Assembly: GCA_015494155.1 (NCBI GenBank)
Contig: WGBU01000144.1
Location: forward strand, 1-60,284
DNA from: Deltaproteobacteria bacterium
Lineage (GTDB): Bacteria > Desulfobacterota > Dissulfuribacteria > Dissulfuribacterales > Dissulfuribacteraceae
DNA length: 60,284 nucleotides
Reading direction: 5' to 3'
Made by a program: the position numbers and the translations under genes
Notes under the pieces: generated by a model
Told to the model about the DNA's origin: nothing
Seen by the model: only the letters and a program-made list of their open reading frames with translations
Database searches by the model: none
Shown here: positions 28,128 to 28,697 of the stretch, piece after piece
Position numbering within the stretch: position 1 is the first letter of the stretch
How the letters are laid out: the number at the start of each line of letters is the position of its first letter

Positions 28128-28697
28128 CTATAAGAGCCTATACGGGTAGGCCCTCTTTGTCCAATCGCTATCTGGAAACCTTTGGGTGAGCTCTTCATAG
28201 GCCTCCTTTAAGGGTGAAGCATCATGGGTGAGTTTATATGTCGCCACACCCCGTAAAAATATGGCCTCTGCCGAGAAGCTACTCTCTGGGTATGCCTCCA
28301 AGACACGTTTAAACCACTCCTTTGCCGCCTCGAACTCGTCCCGTTCAAAATAGGCCTTTCCGATCCCAAGCATCAATGATGGGATAAGCTCTTCCGGTGC
28401 CAGGAATCCCACTGTACGATGGTGTTCTCTACCCTGGTGATCGAGGATCAACAGGGTCGGTGTCCATTTCACCTGAAAATCGTCTGCCAAGGGCCTTGCA
28501 TCGTGGGCCACCCTAACTGGTACAAGGTGCGCATCTATGAACTCTATGACCTCTTTTTGTGGAAACGTGACCGCTTCCATCTGCTTACACCCTATTCAGC
28601 CAGGATTAAAAAAGTCGAGGAACACAAATTTCCCCGATTCCTGTGCCTTTTTTAGGCCTTCGTCCAGAGAATCCAGCCAATTGACCTTGTCTGCCAT
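28128..28697 (-). CDS. Candidate selenoprotein: thioredoxin-like domain (Sec34-x-x-Cys37) with C-terminal TPRs
   Basis: Read from ATG 28697, the frame runs 189 codons to a TAG with one in-frame TGA at 28598-28596. The residues around it are FLDFFNPG-U-IGCKQMEAV, which is a thioredoxin active site in which the first Cys of CxxC is replaced by the UGA-encoded residue. The thioredoxin cis-Pro is present at residue 80 (KWTPTLL). Residues about 100-185 form two TPR-like helix pairs. A SECIS-like hairpin follows the UGA at the proper distance. A gene caller would start at Met40 (28580) and lose half the thioredoxin fold. A G-rich stretch upstream may serve as ribosome binding site. It is likely a redox protein; a sequencing error or pseudogene is the alternative. 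No partner gene lies beside it. Confidence 0.85.
28561..28578 (-). promoter_or_regulatory. SECIS-like hairpin directing UGA readthrough
   Basis: In the mRNA, GGAAGCG-GUCA-CGUUUCC forms a 7-bp stem (one G-U pair) with its first base 18 bases after the UGA. The apex contains GGUC, and the E. coli fdhF SECIS also presents a GGUC apex. The 23 bases between the UGA and that GGUC fall within the range used for bacterial SECIS elements. Confidence 0.75.

Follow-up and report, generated by a model that had tools for sequence, protein, structure and literature searches.

The window analysed in this work, a stretch of 60,284 nt from a deltaproteobacterium of the Dissulfuribacteraceae (contig WGBU01000144.1), carries on its minus strand a frame of 189 codons whose sole break is one TGA (Table 1). 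The ATG is preceded by a G-rich stretch, and the TGA occupies the first position of a thioredoxin U-x-x-C motif (G-U-I-G-C). When the TGA is translated as selenocysteine (Sec), the product reads MADKVNWLDSLDEGLKKAQESGKFVFLDFFNPG-U-IGCKQMEAVTF.... A previous sequence-only reading had described a frame open on both sides of a single TGA at the first Cys of a CxxC motif, and the frame, the TGA position, the UxxC motif and the terminal TAG were all recovered as claimed. It had also predicted that gene callers would report a fragment of 150 residues from Met40, which is what the standard ORF finder returned (28128-28580 alone). Promoter and terminator scans gave consensus matches alone, and of the 36 candidates from a scan of the window for TGA near Cys only this gene was recognisable by eye.

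Table 1 Features of the predicted selenoprotein locus (coordinates of the window)
Feature	Position	Strand	Basis
Predicted selenoprotein gene, 189 residues with Sec34	28128..28697	minus	ATG to TAG
In-frame TGA, predicted Sec, first residue of UIGC	28596..28598	minus	frame and conservation in orthologues
DsbD-gamma-like thioredoxin domain (PF13098), putative cis-proline motif WTP at residues 78-80	28383..28646	minus	Pfam, structure comparison, conservation
C-terminal TPR-like domain, two helix pairs, residues 101-188	28131..28397	minus	PF13174 match and model helices
SECIS hairpin	28560..28579	minus	fold; pairing kept beyond codon constraint in Sec, not Cys, orthologues
Hairpin 5' arm	28572..28579	minus	
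Hairpin loop GUCA	28568..28571	minus	
Hairpin 3' arm	28560..28567	minus	

The proposed fusion of thioredoxin with two TPR-like helix pairs was borne out by Pfam, with matches to Thioredoxin_2 (PF13098, 47.6 bits, cut-off 27) and TPR_6 (PF13174, 28.6 bits, cut-off 26.3), and by an AlphaFold2 model built with 28 sequences (pLDDT 96.9, pTM 0.92). In the model the thioredoxin fold extends to approximately residue 97 and is followed by helices at 101-118, 122-135, 142-157 and 161-173, plus two short ones. The top Foldseek matches among solved structures were DsbD-gamma, the C-terminal domain of DsbD, at about 30% identity. Comparison by VIA-align gave DsbD-gamma a Z of about 13 over residues 2-110 and BamD/TPR domains a Z of about 13 over residues 100-189, a score that can be unspecific for helical repeats. 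Invariant residues are W78-T79-P80, by analogy the cis-Pro motif, together with Cys37, Q39 and M40. DsbD-gamma is the closest relative in sequence and fold and has a thiol-disulfide exchange active site, but DsbD sits in the membrane and has periplasmic domains, whereas the protein described here appears soluble and combines Sec with a TPR tail. No signal peptide was seen by eye, so the protein is most likely cytosolic, and fold and motif point to a probable role as a cytosolic selenium-dependent thiol-disulfide reductase.

The same domain order, thioredoxin then TPR, is found in the chaperedoxin CnoX/YbbN, for which to our knowledge no Sec is known. A selenoprotein acting in this manner would hold unfolding clients with its TPR part and protect or reduce their thiols with the Sec-Cys pair. 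In Caulobacter, the CxxC of CnoX is active and the protein is a constitutive holdase; its architecture places a TrxA-type domain before a TPR domain that consists of two five-helix subdomains (PMC8129009). YbbN (3qou) was among the Foldseek matches, but over its whole length the match was poor (rmsd 11.9, 13% identity). YbbN was not among the 50 VIA-align matches listed, an absence that does not speak against such a match. The modelled protein has a thioredoxin of the DsbD-gamma type and only some 90 residues of TPR-like helices, far fewer than in CnoX/YbbN, and the Pfam search returned no TPR family of the CnoX type. A chaperedoxin-like activity is thus unlikely, and the resemblance to CnoX is one of functional analogy and not of membership.

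The conservation of the TGA was followed in 148 relatives and then in 395 genomes drawn across Desulfobacterota (E <= 1e-30). Among the latter, 78 genomes contained 83 homologues, the window's own included, of which 79 have exactly one in-frame TGA and four have none. In every TGA-bearing locus inspected the codon lies at the U of U-x-x-C. The TGA-free loci inspected (Geomonas, Citrifermentans, Geomesophilobacter and the genomes G060, G323, G161 and G258) have Cys at this site and never Trp, which provides the Sec or Cys homologues that the proposal of a probable selenoprotein called for. In the Geobacteraceae-type family the gene was found in 39 of 48 genomes; the TGA is absent from the genus g261 (taken as Geomonas) and present in nearly all other genera. 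Since the identical codon is kept in independent genomes, it is not a sequencing error. The TGA could otherwise be a real stop, in a pseudogene or a misread sequence or with the downstream 150-residue ORF alone in use, and standard gene finding does yield that ORF. Such a product would have neither the first strand nor the active site, however, and the residues conserved upstream of the TGA, together with its presence in the 79 homologues across many families, make this reading extremely improbable.

The gene context offers no partner, because neighbours are not widely shared: outside Geobacteraceae no neighbour was common to more than three loci, and within this family the loci are flanked by cardiolipin-synthase-like and rsmB-like genes (named by eye from sequence). 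Some genomes encode two or three Sec paralogues (L125 and L126 in G345, L131 in G415); L125 apparently carries a signal peptide, and L126 and L131 have a U-G-A-C motif and a shortened TPR tail. The Sec orthologue L128 (G454) was reported with in-frame TGAs at two positions and with its C-terminus cut short, perhaps through a frameshift or an assembly fault. In the homologue L123 the motif reads C-A-G-S by eye, with neither Sec nor the resolving Cys.

Downstream of the TGA the best fold is a hairpin of 8 bp (UGGAAGCG/CGUUUCCA) closed by a GUCA tetraloop (-11.2 kcal/mol, z = -2.6 versus shuffles), with its first paired base 16 nt after the UGA. The SECIS-like hairpin of the sequence-only reading is therefore present, but not as the 7-bp stem with a GGUC apex at 18 bases that had been proposed, the 'GGUC apex' being made up of the final G of the stem and the loop bases GUC. 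Because the hairpin region is coding, the null was obtained by redrawing synonymous codons according to the codon usage of the gene concerned (2000 redraws). All six stem pairs are kept in 58 of 64 distinct Sec genes, which are related sequences and not independent events, against a null mean of 3.3 and a maximum of 10; in Cys genes they are kept in 0 of 16, equal to their null. Sec genes differ clearly from Cys genes in this respect, and RNA-level selection acts on the hairpin that follows the TGA. With the T of TGA numbered 0, pairs 20-37 and 25-32 are invariant in the 64 Sec genes. All of them have G as the third base of codon +10, which encodes Thr, Ala, Ser, Val or Pro, against one of the 16 Cys genes. 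The stem also covaries, GAT occurring always with TAT, GAA with TTT, and GGT with TAC or TAT.

The pairing has variants. In six Sec genes (GAC...TAC) the register is not paired alike and a one-base bulge is needed, and the distant members L133, L134, L137 and L138 have a poorer hairpin by eye. In L059, the codons of which are largely different (ATGAATACGGGTCCGTATTCC), the region still forms a stem of seven base pairs capped by a GGUC loop. This gene falls in a divergent subgroup (L127, L059, L135, L136 and L121) with the motif FW..GU[IL]GC..MN.GPYS and a strongly conserved hairpin of its own, GAAUACG-GGUC-CGUAUUC.

A search for selA, selB, selC and selD had been suggested as a check, and all four are present in the genome of the window (2.38 Mb, 97.5% complete): tRNA-Sec (75 bits; anticodon TCA by ARAGORN), selB (356 bits), selA (581 bits) and selD (371 bits). 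The selD gene has its own in-frame TGA near the N-terminus (AASGUAAKIGPG), so the gene of the window is not the only one in its genome to show such recoding. Reading of the UGA as Trp or another amino acid, through a general code change or near-cognate read-through, would open the frame as any reading of TGA would, but it has next to no likelihood in view of the Cys in TGA-free orthologues, the use of TGA as a normal stop in some orthologues, the pairing kept in TGA genes alone and the complete Sec machinery.

The conserved TGA, the constraint on the hairpin, the Sec machinery and the Sec/Cys homologues thus support a selenoprotein with Sec34 encoded by the in-frame UGA, to which we assign a probability of about 0.96. 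At codon 34 SelB, bound to the hairpin, would supply the ribosome with Sec-tRNA(UCA). The product would be a DsbD-gamma-like thioredoxin with the active site Sec-Ile-Gly-Cys, followed by two TPR-like helix pairs. Its substrates may be disulfides of client proteins, or similar oxidised sulfur or selenium groups, which would be reduced through attack by the selenolate of Sec34 and resolution by Cys37, and the TPR part may help to select or hold the client.

Well-supported branches in a maximum-likelihood tree of 99 proteins demand no fewer than four changes in the Cys label. Three Cys groups (the Geomonas group, L121 and L060) branch from within the Sec sequences, a placement suggestive of Sec-to-Cys reversion in each; the fourth (L122/L123) is weakly placed in a long-branch region and is compatible with either direction. 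The selA gene is kept in all Geomonas-type genomes tested and was not found in G323, the genome of the Cys member L121.

The designation cd02953 stands for the DsbD-gamma class, and we take the genome G455 (5,136,364 bp) to be that of G. uraniireducens Rf4. G455 has eleven PF13098 matches, and the sole TGA-bearing one is the orthologue of the window's gene. Among the predicted selenoproteins compiled in reviews is a 'Thiol:disulfide interchange protein' with PF13098 and UxxC (WP_011366075.1; PMC9312934, PMC13188914), and an ocean survey described Trx-like 2 (thiol disulfide interchange protein; cd02953, UxxC) (PMC2398784). Family members have been published in G. metallireducens, G. uraniireducens and Syntrophus aciditrophicus, and the survey of 2006 reported three members with one Cys-to-Sec event and no Sec-to-Cys, a direction mostly restricted to FdhA and SelD (PMC1794560). 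Sharing the PF13098 thioredoxin of DsbD-gamma type and UxxC, and represented by the only such locus of G455, the window's gene very probably belongs to this selenoprotein family, named twenty years ago. Whether the TPR fusion had been described was left open by the sequence-only reading: the selenoprotein family very probably has been, whereas we found no text naming a TPR part of the PF13098 UxxC family, and the descriptions consulted do not mention one. Nor was any account found of the wide distribution over many members, nearly all with Sec, or of the several likely Sec-to-Cys reversions. It is doubtful that the genes form a distinct, mostly-Sec and chaperedoxin-like family of Desulfobacterota, in which TPR would hold clients, Sec would repair them and Cys would repeatedly return with the Sec machinery kept.

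The gene of the window is a real, strongly supported selenoprotein gene, ordinary in kind. No NCBIfam model reaches its cut-off on the protein, so members of the family are probably often annotated as fragments; a literature search on NCBIfam with selenoproteins found nothing. The analysis adds dozens of well-supported selenoprotein genes to a family that no NCBIfam model covers at its cut-off and that merits a model of its own. The Cys copies nested in Sec clades, most of them in genomes with selA, offer a natural test of why Sec is abandoned.
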